Positions 998-18,340 of a stretch of DNA of 64,000 bases are shown piece after piece; the first letter of the stretch is position 1, and each line of letters starts with the position of its first letter. The stretch spans positions 124,001-188,000 of the forward strand of contig NZ_BMCP01000003.1 of the NCBI RefSeq assembly GCF_014635245.1, in the 5' to 3' direction. Below the pieces are notes generated by a model. It was given only the letters and a program-made list of their open reading frames with translations. It was not told the origin of the DNA and did no database searches. Position numbers and translations under genes: made by a program. This DNA is from Agaricicola taiwanensis (lineage in GTDB: Bacteria > Pseudomonadota > Alphaproteobacteria > Rhizobiales > Methylopilaceae).

Positions 998-1903
998 ATG
1001 GTCCAGCAAATCGCCGTGTCGGATGCGGCTGTCCTCCAGGATGTTGCCAGCGGCGGAACGGCTCATGAGATCGCCCCGGACCTTGCCTATCGGCGGCTCG
1101 CCATCGTCAACGTCATCTTCTATGGCCTTCCCGGCGCGGGCAACCGCGGCTGGGTTCTGATCGACGCCGGGCTCTACGGCACCAAGGGTTTCATCAAGAG
1201 CGTCGCGGCCGAGCGCTTCGGTGCGGGAGCGCGACCTGCCGCCATCGTCATGACCCACGGCCATTTCGACCATGTGGGCGCGCTGGAAGAACTGGCCGAG
1301 GAATGGGACGTGCCGGTCTATGCTCATCCGCTGGAACGTCCCTACCTCCAGGGAGAGGCATCCTATCCGCCGGGTGATCCCTCTGTCGGCGGCGGGACCA
1401 TGGCGGCCGTGGCCCGGCTCTATCCACGCGGACCGGTGGACCTCGGTCATCGGCTGCATGATCTGCCGGCCAATGGCGAAGTGCCCTTCATGCCCGGCTG
1501 GCGGTGGATCCACACCCCCGGCCATAGTGTGGGCCATGTCTCCTTCTGGCGGGAGAGCGACCGCGCGCTCATCGTGGGCGATGCCTTCGTCACCACCGCT
1601 CAGGAATCCGCCATCTCGGCCGCCCTGCAAAGCGCGGAGATGCACGGTCCGCCCATGTATTTCACGATCGAATGGGACAAGGCGCGCGACTCGGTTGGCC
1701 GCCTTGCCGCGCTTCAACCGGAACTAGTCATCACAGGGCACGGGAGAGCAATGCACGGCGAGGAGATGCGCGAGGCGCTGCAGCGGCTGGCCGACAGCTT
1801 CGACCGGGTCGCCGTTCCCGCGGATGGGACATACCTGCGCCATCCCGCCCGTGTCGAAGACGGCACCGCCTATGTGCGCCACAACAGGCCTGTGCCGCAG
1901 TGA
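998..1903 (+). CDS. MBL-fold metallohydrolase
   Basis: A metallo-beta-lactamase-fold hydrolase with an intact two-metal site: T-H-G-H-F-D-H at residues 86-92, a third-ligand His at 176 (TPGHS), Asp195 in GDAF and His248 in TGHGR. It has no signal peptide, so it is probably cytosolic. The start follows a GAGGGGA ribosome site. Its stop overlaps the GTG start of the next gene (GTGA), so the two are translationally coupled. Members of this branch cleave thioesters, lactones or other esters; the neighbouring lactonase and serine hydrolase fit an ester or lactone substrate, but nothing in the sequence fixes it. Confidence 0.85.
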   Translation: MVQQIAVSDAAVLQDVASGGTAHEIAPDLAYRRLAIVNVIFYGLPGAGNRGWVLIDAGLYGTKGFIKSVAAERFGAGARPAAIVMTHGHFDHVGALEELAEEWDVPVYAHPLERPYLQGEASYPPGDPSVGGGTMAAVARLYPRGPVDLGHRLHDLPANGEVPFMPGWRWIHTPGHSVGHVSFWRESDRALIVGDAFVTTAQESAISAALQSAEMHGPPMYFTIEWDKARDSVGRLAALQPELVITGHGRAMHGEEMREALQRLADSFDRVAVPADGTYLRHPARVEDGTAYVRHNRPVPQ

Positions 1904-4144: not shown

Positions 4145-4334
4145 ATCGATGTCGTCCGGATGGGCTGGGAGGATTTTGGCGATCTCGACGCGTGCGCGTC
4201 CAGTCTTTGCGCCTCAGCGTATTTTCATGGAGTTCATGAACCTTATTACACGATCATTTGCTGTAGCTTAATTATTTTATGGCCTAAAGGCATGGCAGGA
4301 CTTTCCCTGCGCTCCCTTACTTGGATCTCCTTTG

Positions 4335-6314
4335 ATGAGCGTACTTGAGAAGGTCCGTATCCGGACCATTGGGTCGAAGCTGATGCTTGCGACCACGGCC
4401 ACGGCTCTGGCTGCCGCCTGCGCGGTCGGGCTGGCGAGCTACATGCAGCAGAACGACTTGGTGGACATGGCCATCGAGCAGAATCTGAGCTCGGACTATC
4501 AGTCCATCACCGACGCGATGGCCGAACAGGGCCAGCGGGCGATGGGTGTCGCCTATTCCTTCGCCAATGATCCGGTCGTGGCGGATGCCTTCGTGAGCGG
4601 CGACCGCGCGAAGCTGCTTGCGGCCTATGCCGCCGTCACGCCTGTTCTCAAGTCCGAACTGAATCTCGCATTGATCAGCTTCCACAAGCCGACGGGCGAC
4701 AACCTCGTTCGCTTGCATGCGCCTGACGTCTTCGGTGACAACGTCTTCGGCCGCCGGCTGATGCTCGCCGATGTCGCGAAACAGGGCAAACCTCTTGTTG
4801 GCATCGAGCCTGGCCGTGACAGCGTCAGCATCTTCGCCTCGGTGCCGGTTATCAAGGATGGGGTGACCGTCGGAATCGTCGACATCGGCGCGCCGCTTGG
4901 CGCTGCTTTCCTTGCCGATGTGAAGAAGCGTTTCGACGTCGACGTCAGCATGAACGCCGTTTCCGGTGATGAGGTCAAATCGATCTCCTCCACCTTCGAG
5001 CAGAAGACGCTTCTTGATCCGGCCGCGCATAAGGAAGCTTCGACGGAACTGATCCACTGGCGCTCCGATGACATGGGTGATCGGCCCGTGGCGGTCCTCG
5101 CAGGCCCGCTCAAGAACTACTCCGGCAAGCCGATCGGCAGCATCGAGCTCGTGATGGATCGCAGCGAGTTCGCCGCGGCGCGTTCTTCGGCCATGATGGC
5201 CCTGGCCCTCGTGCTCCTCGGCGTTGCAGCCGTTGGAACCGGCGTGGCCGTGCTCCTCACACGTCACCTCGGCACACCGATCCGCGGCCTGACCGGCGCC
5301 ATGGCCCGTCTCGCCAAGGGCGAGTGGGATGCTGAGGTTCCCGGCATCACCCGCAGCGACGAGATCGGCGAGATGGCCAAGGCCGTGCTGGTCTTCAAGG
5401 AGAACGGCATCGAGAACGAGCGCATGACGGCCGAGCGCGAGGCGGAAAACCAGGCCAAGATGCGCCGTGCGCAGAAGCTCGATGAACTGACCAAGGCGTT
5501 CGAGCGCAATGTGACGGAGCTGACCGGCAGCCTCTCGTCCGCCGCGACCGAGATGGAGGCAAGCGCCCAGTCTATGACCGCCATCGCCAGCCAGACGAAC
5601 AGCCAGTCCGTCACCGTGGCCTCGGCGGCGGAACAGACCTCGGCCAATGTCCAGACGGTTGCCAGCGCCACCGAGGAGCTCTCGATCTCCGTTCGTGAGA
5701 TCGTGACGCAGATCAGCCAATCCTCGCAGATCGCCGGCCGGGCTGTTGAAGGCGCCCAGCGCACCAACACCATGGTGCAATCGCTGTCCGACACGGCGGA
5801 CAAGATCGGCGACGTGGTGGCCCTGATCAACAGCATCGCGGCCCAGACCAACCTTCTGGCCCTCAACGCCACCATCGAGGCGGCCCGTGCCGGTGAAGCC
5901 GGCAAGGGATTTGCGGTGGTCGCCAGCGAAGTGAAGGAACTGGCGGGGCAGACCAGCAAGGCGACCGACGAGATCGGCGCCCGGGTGACCGAAGTTCAGA
6001 CGGCCACCCGCGAAGCGATCGCGGCCATTCAGGAGATCAGCAAGACGATCAACGACATGAGCCAGATCTCGGCCACCATCGCCGCCGCCATGGAAGAGCA
6101 GGGAGCGGCGACCAGCGAGATCGCCCGCAACGTGCAGGAGGCGGCGCGCGGCACCGAACAGGTGACCGGCAACATCGGCGATGTGCGCCGCGGAGCCGGT
6201 GAAACCGGAACGGCCGCAAGCCAGGTTCTGTCGGCGGCCCAGCAGCTTGCCCGCCACTCGAGCGATCTCGGCCGGGAACTGGACACCTTCCTCACCGGCG
6301 TCAAGGCCGCGTAA
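4335..6314 (+). CDS. Methyl-accepting chemotaxis protein with Cache-type sensor
   Basis: A transmembrane chemoreceptor that reports periplasmic ligand binding to CheA/CheW. TM1 is near residues 16-37 and is followed by a periplasmic region of about 240 residues with a Cache-like section ([19 protein letters not shown]). TM2 is near 283-307, then a HAMP domain to about 360, and a methyl-accepting coiled-coil domain. The invariant hairpin tip ([20 protein letters not shown]) lies near residues 503-522. There is no C-terminal NWETF-type pentapeptide, so CheR/CheB must dock elsewhere. ATG 4335 was preferred to the adjacent TTG 4332. The gene ends in a strong hairpin shared with upp. The ligand is unknown. 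Confidence 0.92.
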
Positions 6315-7566: not shown

Positions 7567-8448
7567 TCAGTCTGGTTGCAGTTGCTCAAGGATCCAGCTG
7601 CGGAAAAGGGCGATGCGCTTCGGCACGGGGCGGCGGTCGCGATAGAGCATGAGAAATGCGTCGTCCATGTCGCAGAACTCGGGGAACGGCATCACGAGCC
7701 GCCCCTTGGCGACATCGCTCTCGAAGAAGCCGCGACGCCCCAGCACGATGCCGAGGCCATCGAGCGCGGCGCTATAGGCGATGTCGGTGCTCGTGAAGGT
7801 GATCTCATGCGGCATGGCAAGGTTCTGGGGCCGCAGGCAGTTGAACCACTTCTGCCAGTCGCCTTTGCCGCCCGGTGTCTGCAGCAGCGTGTGATGTTCA
7901 AGATCCTCGATCGCGTCGAGGGGAGGGCTGGCGGCGAGATAGGCCGGGCTGCAGACCGGCGTCAGGGAGCGGCGAACAAGCGTGTCTGCGTTCAAGCCGG
8001 GCGGGGCCTTATCGCACAGCCTGATGGCGACATCGAATTCCGCCGGCATGGGATCGCTCGGCATGGCAGAGGCGATGGTGACCTCCTGGCCGGGAAAGCG
8101 GGTGTGAAAATCGGGCAGCCGCGGGATCAGCCAGAGGCGGATGAAGAAACGGGACCCCCAGATGAGCAGCGGGCGGGCATCGGCGGCGGCGCCGATGGCC
8201 CGGGTGCCGGCTTCCAGTCGCGAGAGGCTGTCCTGCACCGTTTCCAGGTAAAGCCGGCCAGCTTCGGTCAGACTGAGCTCGGTTGAGCCGCGGACGAAAA
8301 GATCCACGCCGAGATGGTCCTCCAGCTTGCGGATCTGACGGCTGACCGCGCCGGGCGTCACATGCAGCTCATTCGCCGCCTTGCTGAAGTTCCGCAGGCG
8401 TCCCGCCACTTCGAATGTGCGCACGCCATTCAGCGGCGGCAATTTCAT
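7567..8448 (-). CDS. LysR-family regulator (GcvA-like) of the adjacent catabolic operon
   Basis: A LysR-type transcriptional regulator with an N-terminal winged helix-turn-helix (about residues 14-45, including FSKAANELHVTPGAVSRQIRKLE) and a C-terminal effector-binding domain. The sequence around MKLPPLNGVRTFEVAGR is typical of the GcvA subgroup. ATG 8448 was chosen because a GGAGGG site lies six bases upstream; GTG 8451 is the alternative. It is divergent from the lyase-transporter operon that starts at 8591, with a palindrome beside its own start, so it probably regulates that operon and itself. The effector is presumably the imported carboxylate (inference). Confidence 0.88.
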   Translation of the reverse strand: MKLPPLNGVRTFEVAGRLRNFSKAANELHVTPGAVSRQIRKLEDHLGVDLFVRGSTELSLTEAGRLYLETVQDSLSRLEAGTRAIGAAADARPLLIWGSRFFIRLWLIPRLPDFHTRFPGQEVTIASAMPSDPMPAEFDVAIRLCDKAPPGLNADTLVRRSLTPVCSPAYLAASPPLDAIEDLEHHTLLQTPGGKGDWQKWFNCLRPQNLAMPHEITFTSTDIAYSAALDGLGIVLGRRGFFESDVAKGRLVMPFPEFCDMDDAFLMLYRDRRPVPKRIALFRSWILEQLQPD

Positions 8449-8462
8449 CACAGGCCCTCCCC

Positions 8463-8481: not shown

Positions 8482-8590
8482 CGCGCGACTTTAACTCGTT
8501 TGACCCCGAGCGGGAACAGCCTTCACATCAGCCCCAACAAGACTGGGCCGGTCCCTACCGGACGCCAGGGAAGAGACATTGGGAGGGGCC

Positions 8591-9451
8591 GTGAAAGCCA
8601 CAGATCGCAGAGAGCGCCTGCGCGCCATCCTGACGGGAGAGCGCTGCGTGATGCCCGCCTCCGTGCACGATCCCTTGTCGGCGCGCCTCGCGCAGTCGCT
8701 CGGTTTCGAGGCGGGCATGTTCGCCGGATCGGTTGCCTCCCTCATGGTGCTGGGCGCACCGGATCTTGCGGTGATCACACTGACGGAGTTCGCCGAGCAG
8801 GCCCGGCGGATCACCCGCGCCACCGATCTGCCGATCATCGCCGATGCCGATCATGGCTATGGCAACGCGCTCAGCGTCGCGCGGACGGTTGAAGAGCTCG
8901 AATATGCGGGCGTGGCGGCTCTGACCATCGAGGATACGGAACTGCCGCAGGCTTTCGGCGCGAAGGGCGCTCGCGTGATCCCGCTTGCCGAGGGCGTGGG
9001 GAAGATGCGCGCGGCGGTGAGCGCGCGGGATGACGCGGCGCTGATCGTTGTCGCCCGCACGGGTGCCTCCTCCATCTCCGGGATCGATGATGCGGTTACC
9101 CGCTGCAAGGCCTACCAGGACACCGGTGTGGATGCCCTGTTCCTCTCCGGCGTGGAAAGCCGGGATCATCTGGAAAAGCTCTGCGCGGTGGCGCGTGTAC
9201 CGGTCCTGCTGGGCGCCATGGCGCCCGACGTGCGTGACCTCGACTATCTGAGCGGACTTGGCGTGCGCGTTGCGCTTCAGGGTCATTGGCCGCTGCGCGC
9301 GGCGATCTCCGCCATCCGCGACACCATGACGGCCCTGAAAGGCAACGCGGCCTATGCGGGCAGCGACACGGCGGCTTCGGCGGCGCTCATGGCCGAACTC
9401 AGCCATGACGCGCACTACAAGAAAGCGACCAAGGACTTCCTGAATGACTGA
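8591..9451 (+). CDS. Isocitrate lyase/PEP mutase superfamily protein, oxaloacetate decarboxylase-like
   Basis: A 286-residue (beta/alpha)8 enzyme of the isocitrate lyase/PEP mutase superfamily. The Mg-binding DADHGYGN segment is at residues 85-92 and IEDTELPQ is at 113-120. The KKCGH-type catalytic loop of true isocitrate lyases is absent. From memory, the surrounding sequence (SARLAQSLGFE, GSVASLMVLGAPDLAVITL) resembles the Pseudomonas oxaloacetate decarboxylase subgroup, so decarboxylation or lysis of a 2-oxo-dicarboxylate is likely. GTG 8591 follows GGAGG by about five bases; an in-frame TTG at 8579 is less likely. It overlaps the next gene by 8 bp and begins the operon that ends with a carboxylate transporter. 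Confidence 0.8.
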   Translation: MKATDRRERLRAILTGERCVMPASVHDPLSARLAQSLGFEAGMFAGSVASLMVLGAPDLAVITLTEFAEQARRITRATDLPIIADADHGYGNALSVARTVEELEYAGVAALTIEDTELPQAFGAKGARVIPLAEGVGKMRAAVSARDDAALIVVARTGASSISGIDDAVTRCKAYQDTGVDALFLSGVESRDHLEKLCAVARVPVLLGAMAPDVRDLDYLSGLGVRVALQGHWPLRAAISAIRDTMTALKGNAAYAGSDTAASAALMAELSHDAHYKKATKDFLND

Positions 9452-10355
9452 TCTGTCTCCTCCCCTCGACAGGGCTGCGGCACCCGCCATGGGGCCCGTG
9501 ACCGAGCTTTATCCCGAGCGGCTCTACGCGCTGCAGAACGTCATCCGTCTCGACGGGCGCATCAGTTCTTATCCGGCCAATGCTCGAGGTTACACAGTCT
9601 CCAACTGCTTCCTGATCAAGGAAGGCAAGGACGCCGTGCTGCTGGACAGCGGATATTCGGCGCATGAGGAATCCATCCTGGCGCAGATCGCCAGCGTGCT
9701 GGAGCCGGACGCGACGCTGTCGGTCTATCCCCTGCGCATCAACGAATACATGTCGGTGTGCAACGTGGAGGCCATCGCGGACCGCTTCAACGTGATCCAG
9801 TGCTATTCCGGCAATCCGGACGCCGCGCTCTGGGTCGACTTCGGACGACGGTCGGATGCGGCCGAACAGAAGCCCTATGCGCTGAAGACGACGCTGGTCG
9901 CCCGCAGCCAGACGCTTCAGGTTGGCAGCGAGGGCGCGCGGCCGATCGAGGCCTTCCAGGCGCCGATCCGCCTCATCGGCACGCGCTGGATTTACGATCA
10001 GGCCACCCGCACGCTCTTCACCTCCGACAGTTTTTCCCACGAGTGGAGCGACAGTCCGTCTGGTCCCTGGACCACGACGGCGGACGACAACAGCACCAGT
10101 GCCGATCACATCCGCAGCTTTCTCCTCAACACCCGCTACTGGTGGCTTGAAGGGGGCAAGACGAACGAGCTCCGCCGCAAGCTCGATGAGGTCTTCAGCA
10201 AATATGAGATCGACATGATCGCGCCGGGCTACGGGCGGGTCATCTGCGGCCGCGCGCTGGTGGAGCGGCAAGTGGCCATGTTCGACGACGTCCTGAGGCG
10301 GCTCGACCGCAGCGTCGTCCCGGCGAAATACGTCGATCGCGACGAGATTAGGTGA
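9444..10355 (+). CDS. MBL-fold protein with a lost metal site
   Basis: A 303-residue metallo-beta-lactamase-fold protein, recognised by its N-terminal strands (TVSNCFLIKEGKDAVLLDSG) and the later TRTLFTSDSFSHEW. Where active family members have HxHxDH or HxExDH, this one reads PLRINEYMSVCN (residues 96-107), and the usual C-terminal PxHG is PGYGR. Almost every metal ligand is therefore missing. Its start lies inside the previous stop and its end overlaps the next gene, another MBL-fold protein. A non-catalytic partner subunit is a reasonable inference, though an altered hydrolase is possible. No signal peptide is seen. Confidence 0.7.
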   Translation: MTDLSPPLDRAAAPAMGPVTELYPERLYALQNVIRLDGRISSYPANARGYTVSNCFLIKEGKDAVLLDSGYSAHEESILAQIASVLEPDATLSVYPLRINEYMSVCNVEAIADRFNVIQCYSGNPDAALWVDFGRRSDAAEQKPYALKTTLVARSQTLQVGSEGARPIEAFQAPIRLIGTRWIYDQATRTLFTSDSFSHEWSDSPSGPWTTTADDNSTSADHIRSFLLNTRYWWLEGGKTNELRRKLDEVFSKYEIDMIAPGYGRVICGRALVERQVAMFDDVLRRLDRSVVPAKYVDRDEIR

Positions 10356-11173
10356 TCCCCATGTGCCAGAAACATTCTCTCCCGCGCGAACTGGCCGAAG
10401 GCGTCTTCTGGCTGGGCGACTGCCTGGAGCAGCGCGCCAACGGCAAGATCTATCACACCTACAATGCCGCCTATCTCCTTGTCGGCACGGAAGCCTCCAT
10501 GCTGATCGAGACGGGACATCCCAAGGATTTCCCGACGCTCGACCGGCAGATGACGGAGCTGCTGAAGGACCGTCCGCCGCTGAAGTATCTCTTCGTCACC
10601 CATCAGGAGACGCCGCATTCCGGTGGCCTCGGGCGTGTGCTGAGCCGCTATCCCAAGGCGGTTCTCTGTGGCGATCTCAGCGATTATCACCTTGCCTTTC
10701 CGGGCCTTGCCGGCCGCATGCTCGACCTGAGGGCGGGAGACGCGGTTGATCTCGGCGGCCGCTCCTTCGTGGCGGTCGAGCCTGTCATCCGCGACCTCAG
10801 GACCACCTGGTGGGGCTTCGACACCAAGGAGCGCGTGCTCTTTCCGGGCGACGGCTTCGCCTACAGCCATTATCACGAGGACGGCCACTGCGGGCTTTTC
10901 GCCGAGGAGGCCACCTCGCTGAATCTCCCCGAGGTTTCGGCGGTCTTCGCCGATCGGGCGCTGTTCTGGACCAAGTTCACGGACATGGGTCTTTATGTCG
11001 ACCGGCTGCAATGGCTGGTGGACGAACTTGACGTGAAGTGCATCGCGCCGGCCCACGGGCTGCCGATTCAAGATCCCACGCAAACCGTACCGAAGGTGAA
11101 GGAAGGGCTGCTCTACGGCAGTTCGGTCCCTGAATCGGGCACCGAAACCGGCCTCGCGCCGGTGGCCGTCTGA
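10352..11173 (+). CDS. MBL-fold protein with a partial diiron-type (ODP-like) site
   Basis: A 273-residue metallo-beta-lactamase-fold protein. The metal motif is T-H-Q-E-T-P-H at residues 83-89. This resembles the HxExDH motif of flavodiiron/ODP proteins rather than the hydrolase HxHxDH, with Pro in place of Asp. Asp167 (PGDGF) and His235 (PAHG) are present, while the intermediate His ligand is not evident. GTG 10352 overlaps the previous stop; ATG 10361 is an alternative. No flavodoxin domain is attached. With the preceding, more degenerate homologue it may form a heteromeric oxidoreductase or sensor; this is inference. Confidence 0.72.
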   Translation: MIPMCQKHSLPRELAEGVFWLGDCLEQRANGKIYHTYNAAYLLVGTEASMLIETGHPKDFPTLDRQMTELLKDRPPLKYLFVTHQETPHSGGLGRVLSRYPKAVLCGDLSDYHLAFPGLAGRMLDLRAGDAVDLGGRSFVAVEPVIRDLRTTWWGFDTKERVLFPGDGFAYSHYHEDGHCGLFAEEATSLNLPEVSAVFADRALFWTKFTDMGLYVDRLQWLVDELDVKCIAPAHGLPIQDPTQTVPKVKEGLLYGSSVPESGTETGLAPVAV

Positions 11174-11217
11174 GCTGAAGTTCAGGCTGCAATAACGATA
11201 TAAAAATGGAGGAAACA

Positions 11218-12225
11218 ATGACGATCGAACAGAAGCGTGCCGCGGCGACAGTGTCACGGCGCATGATGGTCTCTTTGGCGGTGATGGCCTTTGGCCTCGC
11301 CCTGCCGGCGACGGCGTCCGCTCAGGATTATCCGACCCAGCCGATCAAGCTGATCGTGCCGGGAACGGCAGGTGGCGGCATGGATGTCATCGCCCGTGTG
11401 ATCGGCGACAGGATCGGTACCATCCTCAAGCAGCCCGTGGTGGTGGAAAACAAGCCCGGCGCCGGCGGCAACATCGCCGTCGACTATGTCGCCAAGTCCA
11501 AGCCCGACGGCTACACCATGCTGATCGGCCAGACCGCGCATTTCTCCATCAACCCGTCGCTCTATTCGTCCTTGCCATTTGATCCGGTCAAGGATTTCCA
11601 GCCCGTGACGCTGCTGGCGGATGCTCCCAACGTGGTGATGGTCAACGCGGAATCGCCCATCAAGAATCTGGACGAGCTTGTCGCGGCGGCCAAAGCCTCC
11701 GAAAAGGGGCTGTCGCTCGCAACTCCGGGCAACGGGACGGTCTCGCATCTGACAGGCGAGTTGTTCCAGAAGACCGCACAAGTGAAGTTCAACCACATCC
11801 CCTACAAGGGCGCCGCCGCGGCGCTGACCGATGTGATGGGCGGCCGCGTCGATTTCATGCTCTCGTCGATTCCAACAGCGCTGTCGCAGATCAAGGCGGG
11901 CAAGCTCAGGCCGATCGCGGTCTCGGCGGCAAAGCGCAGCCCCTCGCTGCCTGATGTCCCGACCATCGGCGAGCAGGGCTATCCCGGCTTCGACGCAGGC
12001 ACCTGGTATGGCCTGCTGGTGCCGGCGGGCACGCCGACGGCTGTGGTCGAGAAGCTCAACGCCGCGGCCAATGAAGCCATCGAGGCCGATGACATCCGCG
12101 AGAAGATCCGCCAGGAGGGCGGTGACAGCTACGGCGGCACGAGCGCGGAATTCGCGGCCCTTATGAAGGCCGACAGCGAAAAGTGGTCCAAGGTCGTCAA
12201 GGAATCCGGCGCCAAGGTCGACTGA
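11218..12225 (+). CDS. tctC: Tripartite tricarboxylate transporter substrate-binding protein (TctC/Bug family)
   Basis: The periplasmic receptor of a TctABC importer. It has an N-terminal signal sequence (SRRMMVSLAVMAFGLALPA, cleavage after ASA) and then the Bug-family start YPTQPIKLIVPGTAGGGMD, whose loop binds carboxylates. GGAGGAA just upstream picks ATG 11218 rather than ATG 11206. At 335 residues it is of normal size. It follows the MBL pair by 44 bp and is separated from tctB by two competing stem-loops, which would favour receptor expression over the membrane subunits. Substrates of the family are di- and tricarboxylates and related small acids. Confidence 0.9.
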   Translation: MTIEQKRAAATVSRRMMVSLAVMAFGLALPATASAQDYPTQPIKLIVPGTAGGGMDVIARVIGDRIGTILKQPVVVENKPGAGGNIAVDYVAKSKPDGYTMLIGQTAHFSINPSLYSSLPFDPVKDFQPVTLLADAPNVVMVNAESPIKNLDELVAAAKASEKGLSLATPGNGTVSHLTGELFQKTAQVKFNHIPYKGAAAALTDVMGGRVDFMLSSIPTALSQIKAGKLRPIAVSAAKRSPSLPDVPTIGEQGYPGFDAGTWYGLLVPAGTPTAVVEKLNAAANEAIEADDIREKIRQEGGDSYGGTSAEFAALMKADSEKWSKVVKESGAKVD

Positions 12226-12314: not shown

Positions 12315-12800
12315 ATGCAACAGAGGATCACCCGGATGTCTCCGACCATTCGCGCGCCCAAGGAATTTTGGATGGGCCTGCTCTATCTCGCCCTTGGCGG
12401 TGCAGGCATCCTGATCGCGCAGCATTATCCCTTCGGCACCGCGAGCCGGATGGGGCCTGGCTATCTGCCCAGCCTCGTCTGCGGATTGTTGATGCTGTTC
12501 GGCGTCATCTCGCTGGTGCGGGCGGTGCGGCTGACGGGTGAGCCCATCGGTGAGATCGCCTTCAAGCCGCTGTTTCTCGTCCTGCTGAGCGTCTTCGCCT
12601 TCGCGGCTCTCAGCCTGCGCGCGGGGCTGGTCATCGCGATCATCGCCCTTGTGCTCATCAGCGCCGCCGGCAGCCGCTATTTCACCTTCTCCTGGAAGGC
12701 GATGGCCGGCATGCTTGTTCTCGTCGCCTTCTGCAGTCTCATCTTCGTACGGGGCCTGGGTGTCCCGCTGCCGTTGATCGGCACATGGTTCACGGGCTGA
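12315..12800 (+). CDS. tctB: Tripartite tricarboxylate transporter small membrane subunit TctB
   Basis: The small integral-membrane subunit of the TctABC importer. The 161-residue protein shows about four hydrophobic segments (around residues 22-38, 50-68, 82-120 and 130-150). The family's G-x-G-x-x-P turn is visible as RMGPGYLPSLVCG after the first helix. A second in-frame ATG at 12336 could be the true start, since ribosome-site evidence does not decide. It ends 10 bp before tctA, so the two membrane subunits are co-translated. TctB acts with TctA in proton- or sodium-coupled uptake of the ligand delivered by TctC. Confidence 0.85.
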   Translation: MQQRITRMSPTIRAPKEFWMGLLYLALGGAGILIAQHYPFGTASRMGPGYLPSLVCGLLMLFGVISLVRAVRLTGEPIGEIAFKPLFLVLLSVFAFAALSLRAGLVIAIIALVLISAAGSRYFTFSWKAMAGMLVLVAFCSLIFVRGLGVPLPLIGTWFTG

Positions 12801-12810
12801 GGAGGCGCGC

Positions 12811-14316
12811 ATGGAACTCTTCGGCAATCTGGCGCTCGGTTTCGAAACGGCGCTGACCCTCACCAATCTGGCCTATTGTTTCCTCGGGGTGCTGCTCGGC
12901 ACGGCCATCGGCGTGCTGCCGGGGCTGGGCCCCGTGGCGACCATCGCCATGCTGCTGCCGCTCACCTTCGGGCTTCCGGCGGAGACCTCGCTGATCATGC
13001 TCGCGGGCATCTATTACGGTGCGCAGTATGGCGGCTCGACGACGGCGATCCTGGTCAATCTGCCGGGGGAATCCTCCGCGGTCGTCGCGACGCTCGACGG
13101 CTATCAGATGGCGCGGCGCGGCCGGGCGGGCGTGGCCCTTGCCACCGCCGCCATCGGCTCCTTCGTTGCCGGCACCATCGCCACCCTTGTCATCGTGCTG
13201 TTCGCGCCGCCGCTTGCCGGCGTGGCGCTGGAATTCGGCGCGGCCGAATATTTCTCGCTGATGGTTCTGGGGCTGATCGCCTCCATCGTGCTCGCCCACG
13301 GTTCGCTGCTGCATGCCTTCGGCATGATCCTGATCGGCTTCTTCCTGGGCTTTGTCGGCACCGATGTGAACTCGGGGATGCAGCGGTACAGCTTTGGCGT
13401 GCCGGAACTGGGCGACGGGCTCAACTTCGTCATCATCGCCATGGGCACTTTCGGGCTGGGCGAGATCATCGCCAACCTCGGCACCGAAATGAGCCGCGAT
13501 GTTCATGCCGCGAAGATCAACAACCTGATGCCGAGCCGCGAGGATTTCCGGCGGATCGTCAAGCCGATCCTGCGAGGGACCTTCCTCGGCTCGTTCCTTG
13601 GAATCCTGCCCGGCGGCGGGGCCATGTTGGCCGCTTTCGCGACCTATTCGATGGAGAAGAAGCTGTCGCCGCATCAGGCGGAATTCGGCCATGGCGCGAT
13701 CGAGGGCGTCGCGGCGCCGGAATCGGCCAATAACGCGGGCGCGCAAACCTCCTTCATTCCCATGCTGACGCTCGGCATCCCTTCCAATCCCGTGATGGCG
13801 CTGATGATCGGCGCGATGATCATCCAGGGCATCCAGCCGGGACCGTCGGTGATGACCGAACAGCCGAGCCTGTTCTGGGGGCTGATCATCTCGATGTGGA
13901 TCGGCAATCTGATGCTGCTGGTCCTGAACCTTCCGCTTGTTGGAATCTGGGTGAAGCTCATTTCGGTGCCCTACCACTTCCTCTATCCCGTCATCCTGAC
14001 GTTCTGCTGCATCGGCGTCTTCAGCCTCAACAACTCCACCTTCGACATCTACCTGATGATCATATTCGGCTTCATGGGATATGTGTTCCGCAAGCTGGGA
14101 GCCGAGCCCGCCCCCATGCTGCTCGCCTTCATCCTCGGTCCCATGATGGAGGAATATCTGAGGCGCGCGCTGCTTCTGTCGCATGGCGATCCCGCCGTCT
14201 TCATCTTCAGCCCCATCAGCGGCGCGCTTCTGGTGGTGGCCGTCATCCTCCTGCTTCTTGTGCTGCTGCCATCGATCAAGCGCAGCCGTGTTGAAGCCTT
14301 CCAGGAGGAGGCATGA
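12811..14316 (+). CDS. tctA: Tripartite tricarboxylate transporter large membrane subunit TctA
   Basis: The large membrane subunit, 501 residues with about 12 hydrophobic segments. It carries the conserved TctA motif near the N-terminus, GTAIGVLPGLGPVATIAMLLP (about residues 30-50), and its internal counterpart GILPGGGAMLAAF near residue 265, reflecting the inverted-repeat fold of the family. The sequence YYGAQYGGSTTAIL is also characteristic. A GAGGAGG site precedes the ATG. It belongs to one operon with the lyase, the MBL pair, tctC, tctB and the GlcG-like gene, so the carboxylate it imports is probably processed by those enzymes. Confidence 0.93.
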   Translation: MELFGNLALGFETALTLTNLAYCFLGVLLGTAIGVLPGLGPVATIAMLLPLTFGLPAETSLIMLAGIYYGAQYGGSTTAILVNLPGESSAVVATLDGYQMARRGRAGVALATAAIGSFVAGTIATLVIVLFAPPLAGVALEFGAAEYFSLMVLGLIASIVLAHGSLLHAFGMILIGFFLGFVGTDVNSGMQRYSFGVPELGDGLNFVIIAMGTFGLGEIIANLGTEMSRDVHAAKINNLMPSREDFRRIVKPILRGTFLGSFLGILPGGGAMLAAFATYSMEKKLSPHQAEFGHGAIEGVAAPESANNAGAQTSFIPMLTLGIPSNPVMALMIGAMIIQGIQPGPSVMTEQPSLFWGLIISMWIGNLMLLVLNLPLVGIWVKLISVPYHFLYPVILTFCCIGVFSLNNSTFDIYLMIIFGFMGYVFRKLGAEPAPMLLAFILGPMMEEYLRRALLLSHGDPAVFIFSPISGALLVVAVILLLLVLLPSIKRSRVEAFQEEA

Positions 14317-14343: not shown

Positions 14344-14757
14344 ATGAAGCTCGAGACAGCCCAGGGAATAGTGACCGCCATACTGGCGGACGCCCGAGAC
14401 CGCGGCTTCAATCCGCTGGCCGTAGCCGTGATGGACGCGCGAGGTGCGATGCGCGCGCTTGCGACGGAAGACGGCACCAGCACCAAGCGCGCCGAAATCG
14501 CCATGGGCAAGGCACATGCGGCCGTTGCCATGGGCTTCGGCACCCGCGATCTTGCGAAGCGCGCGCCGCAATTTCTCGCGGCGGTGACCCACGCGGTTGG
14601 CGGGCTCTTCGTGCCGGTTCCAGGCGGCGTGCTGATCCGGAGCCAGGACGGCAGCCTCCTCGGCTCGGTCGGCGTGTCCGGCGAGAGTTCTGACAACGAC
14701 GAAATGGCTGCGGTCGCAGGCATCACGGCGCAGGCCCTGGTGGCTGACCCGGGCTAA
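14344..14757 (+). CDS. GlcG/HbpS family protein (DUF336)
   Basis: A small soluble protein of 137 residues in the GlcG/HbpS (DUF336) family, recognised by the pattern NPLAVAVMDARGAMRALATEDG, then KRAEIAMGKAHAA, and the C-terminal GSVGVSGESSDNDE. Members accompany glycolate or dicarboxylate catabolic operons, and some Actinobacterial relatives bind haem; the biochemical role is mostly unknown. AAGGAG precedes the ATG. It is the last gene of the LysR-controlled operon, 27 bp after tctA. The toxin-antitoxin promoter begins immediately after its stop. Confidence 0.8.
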   Translation: MKLETAQGIVTAILADARDRGFNPLAVAVMDARGAMRALATEDGTSTKRAEIAMGKAHAAVAMGFGTRDLAKRAPQFLAAVTHAVGGLFVPVPGGVLIRSQDGSLLGSVGVSGESSDNDEMAAVAGITAQALVADPG

Positions 14758-14760
14758 GCC

Positions 14761-14804
14761 TTGTTTTTGCCGTTTGGCATGTTATATCTAATTCCATGCC
14801 AAAC
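14761..14804 (+). promoter_or_regulatory. Toxin-antitoxin promoter and operator; probable leaderless start
   Basis: A -35-like TTGTTT (14761-14766) and a -10-like TATATC (14783-14788) precede the antitoxin ATG at 14796. A perfect 10-bp inverted repeat (14772-14781 and 14795-14804, 13-base centre) spans the -10 and the start codon itself. No ribosome site exists, and initiation seven bases after the -10 would fall at the ATG, so the mRNA is probably leaderless and blocked by its own antitoxin. Confidence 0.6.
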
Positions 14805-15230
14805 AACAGCGCCGCCATTCAGCTCACTCTCGTCCAGCCGACACCGGCCAACAGCGCTGTTGATCGGATCACGGATGAAGAGGCGGCTGCCCTCGCGCGC
14901 ACCACCGTCAATCTCTTCCGCGCCTGGGGCCTCAGCGATGCTGAGGCCTGCACGCTTCTGGGCGGCATGGCCCTCAGAACATGGGCGCGGTGGAAGGAGG
15001 GCGCGATCGGGCGGATCGACCGCGACCTGCGGGCCCGTATGGCGATCCTGATGGGGATCCATAAGGGCTTGCGGCATCTCTTTCGCGATCCGGCGCGCGG
15101 CTATGCCTGGATCCGCAAACCGAACGCTTTTTTCGCAGGGCAATCGGCGCTCGACGTGATGATGCGCGGTGAGATGACCGATCTCATCGATGTGCGCGGC
15201 TTCCTCGACGCTGAGCGCGGGGCGTGGTGA
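14796..15230 (+). CDS. Xre/MbcA/ParS-type antitoxin (DUF2384)
   Basis: The antitoxin of a RES-Xre pair. The 144-residue protein has an N-terminal Xre-like helix-turn-helix region (about residues 30-70, LSDAEACTLLGGMALRTWARWKEG). A C-terminal toxin-binding DUF2384/MbcA domain follows (about 85-144), with the signature AWIRKPNAFFAGQSALDVM, whose last helix normally plugs the toxin's NAD pocket. The start codon lies inside an inverted repeat, fitting autorepression. The end overlaps the toxin start by 7 bp, giving coupled translation and the usual antitoxin-first order. Confidence 0.88.
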   Translation: MPNNSAAIQLTLVQPTPANSAVDRITDEEAAALARTTVNLFRAWGLSDAEACTLLGGMALRTWARWKEGAIGRIDRDLRARMAILMGIHKGLRHLFRDPARGYAWIRKPNAFFAGQSALDVMMRGEMTDLIDVRGFLDAERGAW

Positions 15231-15916
15231 CGCCGCCCCTGCGGCGGGTGACCTGGCGGCAGACCTGGCGCATCATCCGCTCCATCTATCCGCCGATCGA
15301 TCTTTTCGAGGACATCGCCGATCCCGCCGATTGGGAAGCAGTGGCTTCGGCGGAGGCCAAATTCAACCCGCGTGTGCGGGACGCGGTGGGCGATCTTGTC
15401 AAGCTGCCGGTGGCGCGGCGCGTGACGGGTCCGGGAGCAAGCTGGGTCAACGCGCCCTTCGTGCATTGTTCCATGCTCAGGCCCAGTCGGTTTTCCGACG
15501 GGAGTTTCGGGGTCTACTACGCCGCCGACCGTGAGGAGACGGCGCTTGCCGAAACCATCCATCATCACAGCCGCATGATGCGGGCGACAGCGGAGGCGCC
15601 AGGCTGGACCTCGGAGTTCCGGGCGCTCATCGGCAGCATCGACCGCGACCTGCACGACGTGGCGGACATGCCCGGGGTGCTTGATCCCGATCGCTATGAG
15701 GCGTCCCAGCAGCTTGGGGCCGACCTGCGGAGGGTTGGAAGCGACGGCGTCACCTGGCCCAGCGTCCGGCACCGGGAGGGCCGCTGCATTGGCGTGTTCT
15801 GGCCTGATGTGATCACCATACCGGCTCAGGGAAGCCACTTCGCCTATCACTGGGATGGCGGCAGGGTCGATTTCATCAAGCGGCTCGATACGGGCGAAGT
15901 GCTCAAGGTGAGCTAG
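15224..15916 (+). CDS. RES-domain toxin (NAD+ phosphorylase/ADP-ribosyl transferase family)
   Basis: The toxin partner, 230 residues. The RES fold is visible from the Arg-containing segment RPSRFSDGSFGVYYAADREETALAE (two stretches, about residues 86-110) and the Ser in YEASQQLGADLR (S161). These correspond to the Arg, Glu and Ser that name the domain. Known RES toxins (MbcT, ParT) destroy NAD+ by phosphorolysis or modify phosphoribosyl enzymes. The start is GTG 15224 or the next GTG at 15227, inside the antitoxin's 3' end. The 3' end overlaps convergent phnN by 14 bp. Confidence 0.87.
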   Translation: MVTPPLRRVTWRQTWRIIRSIYPPIDLFEDIADPADWEAVASAEAKFNPRVRDAVGDLVKLPVARRVTGPGASWVNAPFVHCSMLRPSRFSDGSFGVYYAADREETALAETIHHHSRMMRATAEAPGWTSEFRALIGSIDRDLHDVADMPGVLDPDRYEASQQLGADLRRVGSDGVTWPSVRHREGRCIGVFWPDVITIPAQGSHFAYHWDGGRVDFIKRLDTGEVLKVS

Positions 15917-16517
15917 CGGAGGCGCTGGCGGCCTGGCGTGCGGCTCCCGCGGATCGCCTGAGATGGCCGACCATCTGCCGGACCGCGCCGGCGAGATCGG
16001 CGGAATTGTCGATGCTTATGAAATCACGTGTCGCCTCAGGCAGCTCAAGCGGCACCTGACGCCCGATCCTTTCCCGGATTTCCTCCTCCGTTTCGCGACC
16101 GCGGGCGGCAAGGCGTCCCACAAGCAGCTCCGGCCGCGCGGTCACTTCGATGACCTCGATGGCGCCGAAGCGGTGTGCCGCGGGCTCCAGGGCGCGCCGC
16201 GATATATTCGCGACCACGGTATGGCCCTGCGCCAGATCCTGCAGAACCGCAGCCGGAAGGGCATAGTGAAGCCCATGCGCCTGCCAGGAGAGGCAGAAAG
16301 CACCTTGCGCCTCAGCGGCTAGAAAAGCGGCTTGGCTCAGGCTGTCGTGATCCTCAGTGCCGCCGTCCGACGGGCGCGTGATGACGCGTCGGACAAAACG
16401 TACATTGCGGCAATCCTTGAGTTCTCGGGCGGCGCGTGACAGCAGAGTGTCCTTTCCGGCGCCGCTGGGGCCGACAATGGCAACGAATACACCGGGGTGA
16501 TTGGCTTCAGGCGACAC
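15903..16517 (-). CDS. phnN: Ribose 1,5-bisphosphokinase PhnN
   Basis: Phosphorylates ribose 1,5-bisphosphate to PRPP, the recycling step of C-P lyase metabolism. The 204-residue protein has a guanylate-kinase-like fold with the P-loop G16-P-S-G-A-G-K-D23 and the RRVITRPSDGGTEDHDSLS acceptor region typical of PhnN. I place the start at GTG 16517, preceded by GGGAGGGG at a good distance; the longer upstream frame is only a shadow of phnM. It overlaps phnM by 11 bp and is the last gene of the operon. Its 3' end overlaps the RES toxin gene tail to tail. Confidence 0.92.
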   Translation of the reverse strand: MSPEANHPGVFVAIVGPSGAGKDTLLSRAARELKDCRNVRFVRRVITRPSDGGTEDHDSLSQAAFLAAEAQGAFCLSWQAHGLHYALPAAVLQDLAQGHTVVANISRRALEPAAHRFGAIEVIEVTARPELLVGRLAARGRETEEEIRERIGRQVPLELPEATRDFISIDNSADLAGAVRQMVGHLRRSAGAARQAASASASSP

Positions 16518-17643
16518 GCTGCCCCTCCCGCCACACACCTGCGATGAATGGCGGCAGGCCGTCGGCCGTGCGCACCCGCACAAGGTCGGCGCGCCGCCCG
16601 ATCTCGATCCGGCCGCGATCGTGAAGCTGCGCGGCTGCTGCCGGATTGGCCGTGATGAGACGGATTGCCTGAGGCAAGTCGAGAAGATCCCGTTCGGCGA
16701 GGACAAAGGCGGCCTGCATGAGGCTGAAGGGCACATAATCGGAGGAGAGGATGTCCAGTGCGCCCTTTGCCAGCAGATCGGTAGCCGAGACATTCCCGGA
16801 ATGCGAGCCGCCGCGCACCACATTGGGCGCGCCCATCAGGACCTGAAGCCCGGCCTGGCGTGAGCGCTCCGCCGCTTCGATGGTGGTCGGGAATTCCGCC
16901 AGCGACACGCCCAGCGCCACGCCTTCGGCGACATGATCGGCGGTGGCGTCGTCGTGGGACGCGACCGCGATGCCTGCGTCATGGCAGGCGGCGGCGATCA
17001 GCCTGCGGTTGCGATCGGAATTTTCCTGCGATTCCGCGATCCGGCGCTCGCAGAAGGCCTCAAACTCGGCGTCGGAGATCTTCTTCTTACCCTGGTAGTA
17101 GATGCGATAGGCATCCAGGCTGACGAACTGACGCTGCCCCGGCGCATGGTCCATGAGGGAGGCCAAACGGACACGGTCGTTATCCTTGATGGCATCAAAC
17201 TGGTCCATGACGTCGGAGACCGAGACCTCGCAGCGCAGATGGATGAAGTGATCTGCCCGCAGCCGCTCGGCGGCGCTGGCGGCCGAGATGGTGGCGGCCA
17301 TGGCCTGCATGTCGGCCGCACCGAGTTCGATGTCGCCGTCCGATCCTACGCGTAGGGCATCGAACACCGTGGTGATGCCCGAGGTGGCGATCTGCCCGTC
17401 ATGGGCCTGCAGGGCCGCGGCCATGTTCCAGCGCACCTTCGGCCGGGGCTGGAAATGGCTTTCCAGATGATCGGTGTGAAGCTCGACACATCCCGGCATG
17501 ACGTAATCGCCGCCGACATCAATGCCGATGGTGGCGGGACCGGAGGTGATGTCGACGATGATGCCGTCCCGGATAACGAGCGTTCCGTGGACGATCTCGT
17601 CGGCGAGGATCATGGCGGCATTGGTGAAGATGAGTTCAGACAT
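16507..17643 (-). CDS. phnM: Alpha-D-ribose 1-methylphosphonate 5-triphosphate diphosphatase PhnM
   Basis: Removes diphosphate from ribose 1-alkylphosphonate 5-triphosphate before the C-P bond is broken. It is an amidohydrolase-superfamily protein of 378 residues. The metal-binding motif is ELHTDHLESHFQPR, with H56 and H59, and further metal residues lie in VASHDDATADH. The start is ATG 17643; translation further upstream would only mirror the DUF1045 gene, which this one overlaps by 8 bp. Its end overlaps phnN. Length and motifs match PhnM closely. Confidence 0.94.
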   Translation of the reverse strand: MSELIFTNAAMILADEIVHGTLVIRDGIIVDITSGPATIGIDVGGDYVMPGCVELHTDHLESHFQPRPKVRWNMAAALQAHDGQIATSGITTVFDALRVGSDGDIELGAADMQAMAATISAASAAERLRADHFIHLRCEVSVSDVMDQFDAIKDNDRVRLASLMDHAPGQRQFVSLDAYRIYYQGKKKISDAEFEAFCERRIAESQENSDRNRRLIAAACHDAGIAVASHDDATADHVAEGVALGVSLAEFPTTIEAAERSRQAGLQVLMGAPNVVRGGSHSGNVSATDLLAKGALDILSSDYVPFSLMQAAFVLAERDLLDLPQAIRLITANPAAAAQLHDRGRIEIGRRADLVRVRTADGLPPFIAGVWREGQRVA

Positions 17644-18340
17644 GGGATGCACGGGGGGTTGTGTCGTCGCCGCCGCTGAAGCGGTGACAAGCGTGAATGT
17701 GGAAGGCGTGGCCGGGCGCGGGTTCGATGAAGAGTGCCAGCCCGTCGATGAGGAGCGGTGCGCCGAGCGCGGAGGCGAAATGGCTGCGAAGCGCCGCACC
17801 GACGCGCTTGGCATCGCAGGCGAGCCGCATGGCGTTGGTCAGTGTCATGTGAAAACGGAACTCGTCGAGGACAAAGGGGTAGCCCCAGGCCTTGAGATAG
17901 CGAAGCTGCCGCTCGGTCAGGCTCTCCGGCCGGCGGCGGGCGATCTCCTCCGGCGTCGGCGGAGCCCGGAAGACATCAAAGCTGGTCAGCGTATCCCGTT
18001 CCAGTTCCCGTAGAGCCGGCGTCTCCTGCTCCGGCACCAGCGCGTAAAAGTCGTCCAGCAGGGCCAGCGAGAGCGCGTTTATCATCACGCCCCGGCGCCC
18101 GGCGCAGAAGGAGGCCAGGTGCTGATCGACCTCGTCGAGCGAGACGTCGGGCCGCAGGCGCCAGGGTGCCTTCAGCGTGGCGTGAAAGCCGTAGCGGGAG
18201 GGCGCGGTTATGAAGGGCGCGATCGAAGGGTCCGGCGCCTTGTTCTGGACCCTGGCGAAAGCGTCACGCCCAAACCAGCTTGCCGCGAGTTTCGTCAGAG
18301 CGGCATCGCGAGGAGGCGTGAAGTAGATGGCTGCCCGCAT
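17636..18340 (-). CDS. DUF1045 phosphonate-operon protein (2H phosphoesterase fold)
   Basis: A 234-residue protein of the DUF1045 family found in alphaproteobacterial phn operons. Two H-x-T motifs, H53-A-T55 and H164-M-T166, identify the 2H phosphoesterase superfamily, whose members open cyclic phosphates. This operon has no phnP, the metallo-enzyme that opens 5-phosphoribosyl 1,2-cyclic phosphate after C-P cleavage. The natural inference is that this protein does that job. It overlaps phnE by one base and phnM by 8 bp, so it is made together with the pathway enzymes. Family call is firm; the PhnP-replacing role is inferred. Confidence 0.85.
   Translation of the reverse strand: MRAAIYFTPPRDAALTKLAASWFGRDAFARVQNKAPDPSIAPFITAPSRYGFHATLKAPWRLRPDVSLDEVDQHLASFCAGRRGVMINALSLALLDDFYALVPEQETPALRELERDTLTSFDVFRAPPTPEEIARRRPESLTERQLRYLKAWGYPFVLDEFRFHMTLTNAMRLACDAKRVGAALRSHFASALGAPLLIDGLALFIEPAPGHAFHIHACHRFSGGDDTTPRASHV

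Follow-up and report, generated by a model that had tools for sequence, protein, structure and literature searches.

Tandem metallo-beta-lactamase-fold genes in uptake operons: a candidate two-subunit metalloenzyme family derived from the flavodiiron/ODP branch

Introduction

The window analysed here, a stretch of 64,000 nucleotides from the genome of Agaricicola taiwanensis, contains two overlapping genes (designated MBL1 and MBL2) for proteins of metallo-beta-lactamase (MBL) fold, which lie between a lyase gene and the genes of a tripartite tricarboxylate transporter. Neither protein has the HxHxDH hallmark of the fold, the corresponding residues being HQETPH in MBL2 and RINEYM in MBL1, and both departures are invariant; the hallmark is known to vary within the metallo-beta-lactamase superfamily. 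The locus raises the question of whether the two metal sites are decayed, as was claimed in an earlier note made from the sequence alone, and of what two such proteins do side by side in an uptake operon.

Results

Organisation of the locus

The two overlapping MBL-fold genes were confirmed where the earlier note had placed them (Table 1), as was the occurrence of THQETPH in MBL2 and PLRINEYM in MBL1 at the expected position of the ligand motif. All seven genes from the lyase to the HbpS/GlcG-like gene run in the same direction, with an overlap of 8 bp between the lyase gene and MBL1 and of 4 bp (GTGA) between MBL1 and MBL2. The start codon of the lyase gene is uncertain (TTG at 8579 or later), while both GTG at 10352 and ATG at 10361 are possible for MBL2. 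The closest solved relative of the lyase is the PA4872 oxaloacetate decarboxylase (3b8i; phmmer 3.1e-70, residues 10-286). A homologue of the divergent LysR gene, likewise divergent, occupies the same place at 6 orthologous loci, and the gene is likely to encode the regulator of the operon. Homologues of the HbpS/GlcG-like gene were found by neighbourhood clustering in 6 pair loci.

Table 1. Genes of the putative operon and other features of the window (positions within the 64,000 nucleotides)
Feature	Position	Strand	Remarks
Conventional MBL-fold protein	998-1903	+	Lactamase_B 1.4e-36, strongest match in the genome; outside the pair
Methyl-accepting chemotaxis protein	4332-6314	+	dCache_3 sensor domain
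LysR-family regulator	7567-8451	-	Pfam LysR_substrate and HTH_1; divergent to the operon
PEP-mutase/isocitrate-lyase superfamily lyase	8579-9451	+	PEP_mutase 3.2e-41
MBL1	9444-10355	+	303 aa; Pfam ODP 27.3 bits
MBL2	10352-11173	+	273 aa; Pfam ODP 28.7 bits, Lactamase_B 35.3 bits (over cut-off)
TctC, tripartite tricarboxylate transporter binding protein	11206-12225	+	Pfam TctC 4.8e-75
TctB, small membrane subunit	12315-12800	+	Pfam TctB 6.6e-13
TctA, large membrane subunit	12811-14316	+	Pfam TctA 9.3e-160
HbpS/GlcG-like protein	14344-14757	+	Pfam HbpS-like 5.1e-26; final gene of the putative operon
RES-Xre toxin-antitoxin pair	14796-15916	+	Xre/MbcA/ParS-type antitoxin gene, then RES-domain gene; 7-bp overlap
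Amidohydrolase and small P-loop kinase genes	15903-17814	-	PhnM-like and PhnN-like look

Other features of the window were also recorded. The toxin-antitoxin pair is of an ordinary kind, and the look of the two minus-strand genes that follow suggests a putative phosphonate-metabolism fragment. Some 3 kb separate the chemotaxis gene from the MBL pair downstream of it, and nothing suggests that this gene is part of the operon.

Fold and family of the two proteins

Within the metallo-beta-lactamase fold, both proteins were confirmed to belong to the ODP/flavodiiron branch. Each narrowly passed the cut-off of the Pfam ODP family (PF19583; 27.3 bits for MBL1 and 28.7 for MBL2 against 27.2), while no specific NCBIfam model scored above its cut-off and no flavodoxin domain was matched by Pfam or NCBIfam in either protein; a Roseomonas relative of MBL1 matched no Pfam family. 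With family profiles, the best solved relatives of MBL2 were FprA flavodiiron proteins (2ohh, 1.2e-22), and MBL1 matched both ODP, its best PDB match, and flavodiiron proteins. The predicted structure of MBL1 (pLDDT 72.5) aligned to the Flv1 core (6h0d) with a Z-score of 22.5 and an rmsd of 3.0 over 247 residues. Z-scores were 19-22 for further flavodiiron and ODP structures and at most 17.5 for zinc beta-lactamases. The model of MBL2 was poor (pLDDT 51.7), and worst at residues 86-91 and 144-210, which form the metal-site region; it contributes little to the fold assignment, and the ligand geometry of MBL2 consequently rests on sequence alignment.

A remodelled site in MBL2 and an emptied one in MBL1

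The site residues of MBL2 are H84-x-E86-x-P88-H89, D148, D167 and H235, together with H173, H175 and E186. On alignment to flavodiiron proteins, H84, E86, H89, D167 and H235 are kept, while the Asp of the motif is replaced by P88 and the His of the third motif by D148, such that the flavodiiron set H-E-D-H-H-D-H becomes H-E-P-H-D-D-H. No variation was seen across 32 MBL2 copies at H84, E86, P88, H89, D148, D167, H173, H175 or E186; H235 occurs in 31 of the 32, and the remaining copy runs off its contig. As these residues are essentially invariant, the site is a conserved, remodelled flavodiiron-type site rather than a decayed one, and the possibility of a defective MBL2 was dropped. One broken MBL2 copy was seen, in a Rhizobiales MAG (L026 4749-5564), where the gene is split into two frames by a frameshift or an assembly error.

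The His ligands are lost from MBL1 in the alignment, but other residues have become fixed. In the 32 pairs R98, R176, T180, W182, D195 and W234 of MBL1 are invariant and E101 and N107 nearly so, with the caveat that the window clade has a one-residue insertion in the alignment around positions 98-101. Distant MBL1 copies mostly have the motif RxExD(C/S), in which the acidic residues are retained. MBL1 evolves faster than MBL2 (mean identity 0.36 and 0.46, respectively). The invariance of key residues in 32 homologous pairs indicates that the pairs are real beyond chance.

Co-occurrence of the pair

MBL1 was searched for in genomes of the family and of the class and in a species-level genome collection, and also with an MBL1 profile. 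The searches with MBL2 covered plasmids, genomes of Pseudomonadota and those of the Achromobacter family. MBL1 and MBL2 were adjacent in all 32 pairs, at 31 loci from Alphaproteobacteria, Betaproteobacteria and Actinomycetota, and each true member of either group that was examined had its partner adjoining. The claim that the genes are paired was thus borne out at every locus examined; homologues occurring singly, the result named in advance as telling against it, were looked for and not seen, with no lone MBL2 among 398 genomes of Pseudomonadota or 240 of the Achromobacter family. The other matches to the MBL2 profile in the 398 Pseudomonadota genomes (58-70 bits, open frames of 427-547 aa) look like flavodiiron proteins. 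No relatives of MBL2 were found in phage records. The pairing is close to obligate, and since the gene order is reversed (MBL2-MBL1) in three loci, in Roseomonas and Agrobacterium, it is proximity that has been kept and not one ancestral layout.

The pair is rare, being found in 4 of 385 Alphaproteobacteria (single-sequence search, with the window's own genome included) and 4 of 240 Achromobacter-family genomes; in one alphaproteobacterial family it was present in 14 of 24 genomes. A second pair in the window genome (G000:C1:1513091-1514771; 27% identity for MBL1 and 33% for MBL2) adjoins an ABC importer and a divergent dihydropyrimidinase-like gene, and one Arthrobacter plasmid bears two pairs.

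Joint inheritance

In the tree, bacterial MBL1 and bacterial MBL2 each formed one clade with 100/100 support, and each clade held copies from both Actinomycetota and Pseudomonadota, while the first and second members of haloarchaeal pairs formed two separate groups; the tree carries no determined root and so gives no order of events. Pairwise distances within MBL1 and MBL2 were strongly correlated (0.96, with none of 5000 permutations as high; 0.86 in the distant subset), which is read as joint inheritance rather than contact, because shared species history contributes to it.

Related pairs in haloarchaea and Paracoccus

Tandem pairs were also identified on haloarchaeal plasmids (Halocatena, Natrinema, Halalkalicoccus and Halobaculum) and in Paracoccus. 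Here both members have Hx[DE]xPH followed by D, D and H, the exception being an altered last motif (SHT) in which the His is intact. Next to three of the haloarchaeal pairs are genes for TctC, TctA and TctB; the remaining ones have ABC or TRAP-TAXI genes adjoining or near, and the Paracoccus pair adjoins an ABC importer. Two genes precede the Halocatena pair (L035 2339-7810), one for a conventional MBL protein and one, overlapping the pair, for a fused D-2-hydroxyacid dehydrogenase/Fe-S oxidoreductase (993 aa), a possible clue to the class of substrate.

Gene neighbourhoods

A survey of the neighbourhoods bore on the suggestion that the pair is linked to the lyase and to TctABC. Both adjoin it in the window, and this part stands; elsewhere the lyase is mostly absent and the transporter may be of ABC or TRAP type instead of tripartite, and the two were dropped as fixed partners. 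In the clustered set, 4 loci have a PEP-mutase/isocitrate-lyase relative, and two Halobaculum loci have one at a distance of about 5 kb. TctC lies directly 3' of MBL2 in 11 of 11 close orthologous loci, with TctA and TctB in some of them only. As the window genome has 40 TctC genes, a TctC gene beside any single pair is weak evidence for the substrate, and it is the conservation that counts.

Other neighbours include genes for fumarylacetoacetate-hydrolase family proteins, GFO/IDH and 3-hydroxyisobutyrate-type dehydrogenases, DctP, an alpha/beta hydrolase, an isochorismatase-fold amidohydrolase, a PuuE-type allantoinase, 3-isopropylmalate dehydratase, HpcH aldolase and mandelate racemase family members, and regulators of the LysR, IclR and GntR types are frequent. 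This company, made up mostly of transporters and of genes for the breakdown of organic acids or amides, suggests that small carboxylates and cyclic amides are catabolised, with substrates differing between loci; the enzymes vary so widely from locus to locus that no single substrate or reaction follows. No dedicated reductase was consistently found beside the pair, and neighbourhood clustering gave no recurrent chemotaxis genes, the one such gene nearby being that of the window. At L067 (5774-6520) and 5 related loci, all from one alphaproteobacterial family, a gene near or adjoining MBL2 encodes a conserved protein, some 250 aa long, that matches no Pfam or NCBIfam model.

Discussion

Given that MBL1 has lost its ligands and MBL2 keeps a conserved set, the pair is most naturally read as one catalytic and one non-catalytic subunit. 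On balance we infer, with confidence a little above even, that the pair forms a heteromeric, flavin-free metalloenzyme acting on an imported acid, in which MBL2 would be catalytic and MBL1 an arginine-lined pseudo-subunit. The two would be subunits of one soluble enzyme derived from a flavodiiron/ODP MBL domain. In MBL2, metal position one would be formed by H84, E86, D148 and D167, and position two by H89, H235 and a bridging D167, Pro standing in for the Asp that is usual at this second site. Where carboxylates dominate a ligand set, iron or manganese is favoured over zinc, and the metal of MBL2 would most likely be iron or another M(II). Flavodiiron proteins are described as having a more acidic ligand set (PMC7785958). 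The metal of MBL1 would have been lost and its position taken by an arginine-lined pocket (R98 and R176 with E101), which may hold the carboxylate of the substrate, or MBL1 may complete and stabilise the MBL2 subunit, or both. A small organic acid, brought in by TctCBA at the present locus, would be converted by the enzyme to an intermediate which the upstream decarboxylase/lyase, where present, would turn into a central metabolite. Imported carboxylates or cyclic amides are the candidate substrates, and a hydrolytic opening of a ring or amide and an O2-dependent oxidation would fit equally well as the reaction.

Several known systems resemble parts of this picture. The flavodiiron proteins (FprA/ROO/flavorubredoxin, and the Flv1-Flv3 and Flv2-Flv4 heterodimers), whose defining features include two bound irons and the reduction of O2 or NO, belong to the same MBL branch. 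The cyanobacterial Flv1/Flv3 heterodimer is a precedent for a heteromer (PMC6658166), and some flavodiiron proteins of class C, which no longer bind metal (PMC7785958), are one for a subunit with an empty site. The pair differs from them in having no C-terminal FMN-binding flavodoxin domain, in its ligands (HxExDH...H...D...H in flavodiiron proteins, HxExPH with D148 in MBL2, and most ligands gone in MBL1) and in adjoining organic-acid transporter genes instead of genes for O2 or NO detoxification. ODP, the single-domain oxygen-binding diiron protein of Thermotoga and Treponema, shares with the pair a single MBL domain and no flavodoxin, whereas its ligand set differs and no chemotaxis genes recur beside the pairs that were clustered; we know of no ODP that occurs as an obligate pair of paralogues. 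CmlA has a carboxylate where other MBL proteins have the third-motif His, as MBL2 has D148, a likeness offered as an idea only. CmlA, an MBL diiron beta-hydroxylase mentioned in PMC7785958, was not among the profile-search matches listed, and its domain make-up and gene context differ from those of the pair. The PA4872 oxaloacetate decarboxylase is a clear relative of the lyase, which is a neighbour at this locus and not a conserved partner of the pair.

Other explanations of the pair were weighed against the same observations. The faster evolution of MBL1 and the loss of its His ligands, together with the metal-free flavodiiron proteins of class C (PMC7785958), would also suit an arrangement in which MBL2 is the sole enzyme and MBL1, taking no part in binding the substrate, only chaperones or stabilises it. 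However, the residues of MBL1 at the former ligand positions (R98, E101, R176 and D195) show little or no variation in Pseudomonadota and Actinomycetota alike, which is beyond what a scaffold needs, and this arrangement is considered unlikely. In our view it is distinctly unlikely that the pair, like PqsE or the chemotaxis sensor ODP, is a sensing or scaffold module for a small molecule or O2, which would report the imported compound and not convert it. ODP oxygen sensors are indeed the closest single-domain relatives in the PDB, MBL1 is without a metal site, a dedicated reductase is not a constant neighbour and regulators of the three types are frequent ones; but no signalling domain is fused to or encoded in the pair, the regulators are of ordinary one-component types, and the company of the genes is catabolic and uptake genes, not chemotaxis genes. 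Moreover, ligand-type residues and H173, H175 and E186 that are invariant across phyla are a better fit to catalysis.

A chance association near transporter genes, whether of two independent hydrolases or of an enzyme and its degenerate duplicate, was also considered, as tandem duplicates are common and the window genome has a greatly enlarged family of transporter binding proteins. Against this, both the MBL1 and MBL2 groups span Actinomycetota and Pseudomonadota, adjacency survives changes in gene order, and invariant residues in both proteins indicate selection, which makes coincidence highly improbable. The heteromeric metalloenzyme remains the preferred reading.

Both the fold and the theme of an active subunit with a pseudo-subunit are known, and the pair is a variant of each; there is a fair chance that it represents an undescribed enzyme family. 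More tentatively, at somewhat less than even confidence, the tandem pairs of bacteria and haloarchaea together may constitute an undescribed family of two-subunit metalloenzymes with a new carboxylate-rich Hx[DE]xPH/D/D/H site, in which most bacterial pairs would have a pseudo-subunit whose emptied site has become a carboxylate pocket, and which would carry out a novel step in the catabolism of organic acids or cyclic amides. No literature on operons of MBL and tripartite-transporter genes or on the HxExPH motif was found among open-access papers, which is weak evidence of novelty.

If this is correct, genes annotated as 'MBL fold metallo-hydrolase' and 'hypothetical protein' would together encode a conserved two-part enzyme that occurs in several phyla and has twin-gene relatives in archaea, and a new metal-ligand pattern would be added to a very large superfamily. 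The pairs might also represent an evolutionary series, from paired sites in haloarchaea and Paracoccus to pairs of active enzyme and pseudo-enzyme in other bacteria, and would give a hint of function in uptake operons which lack known substrates.
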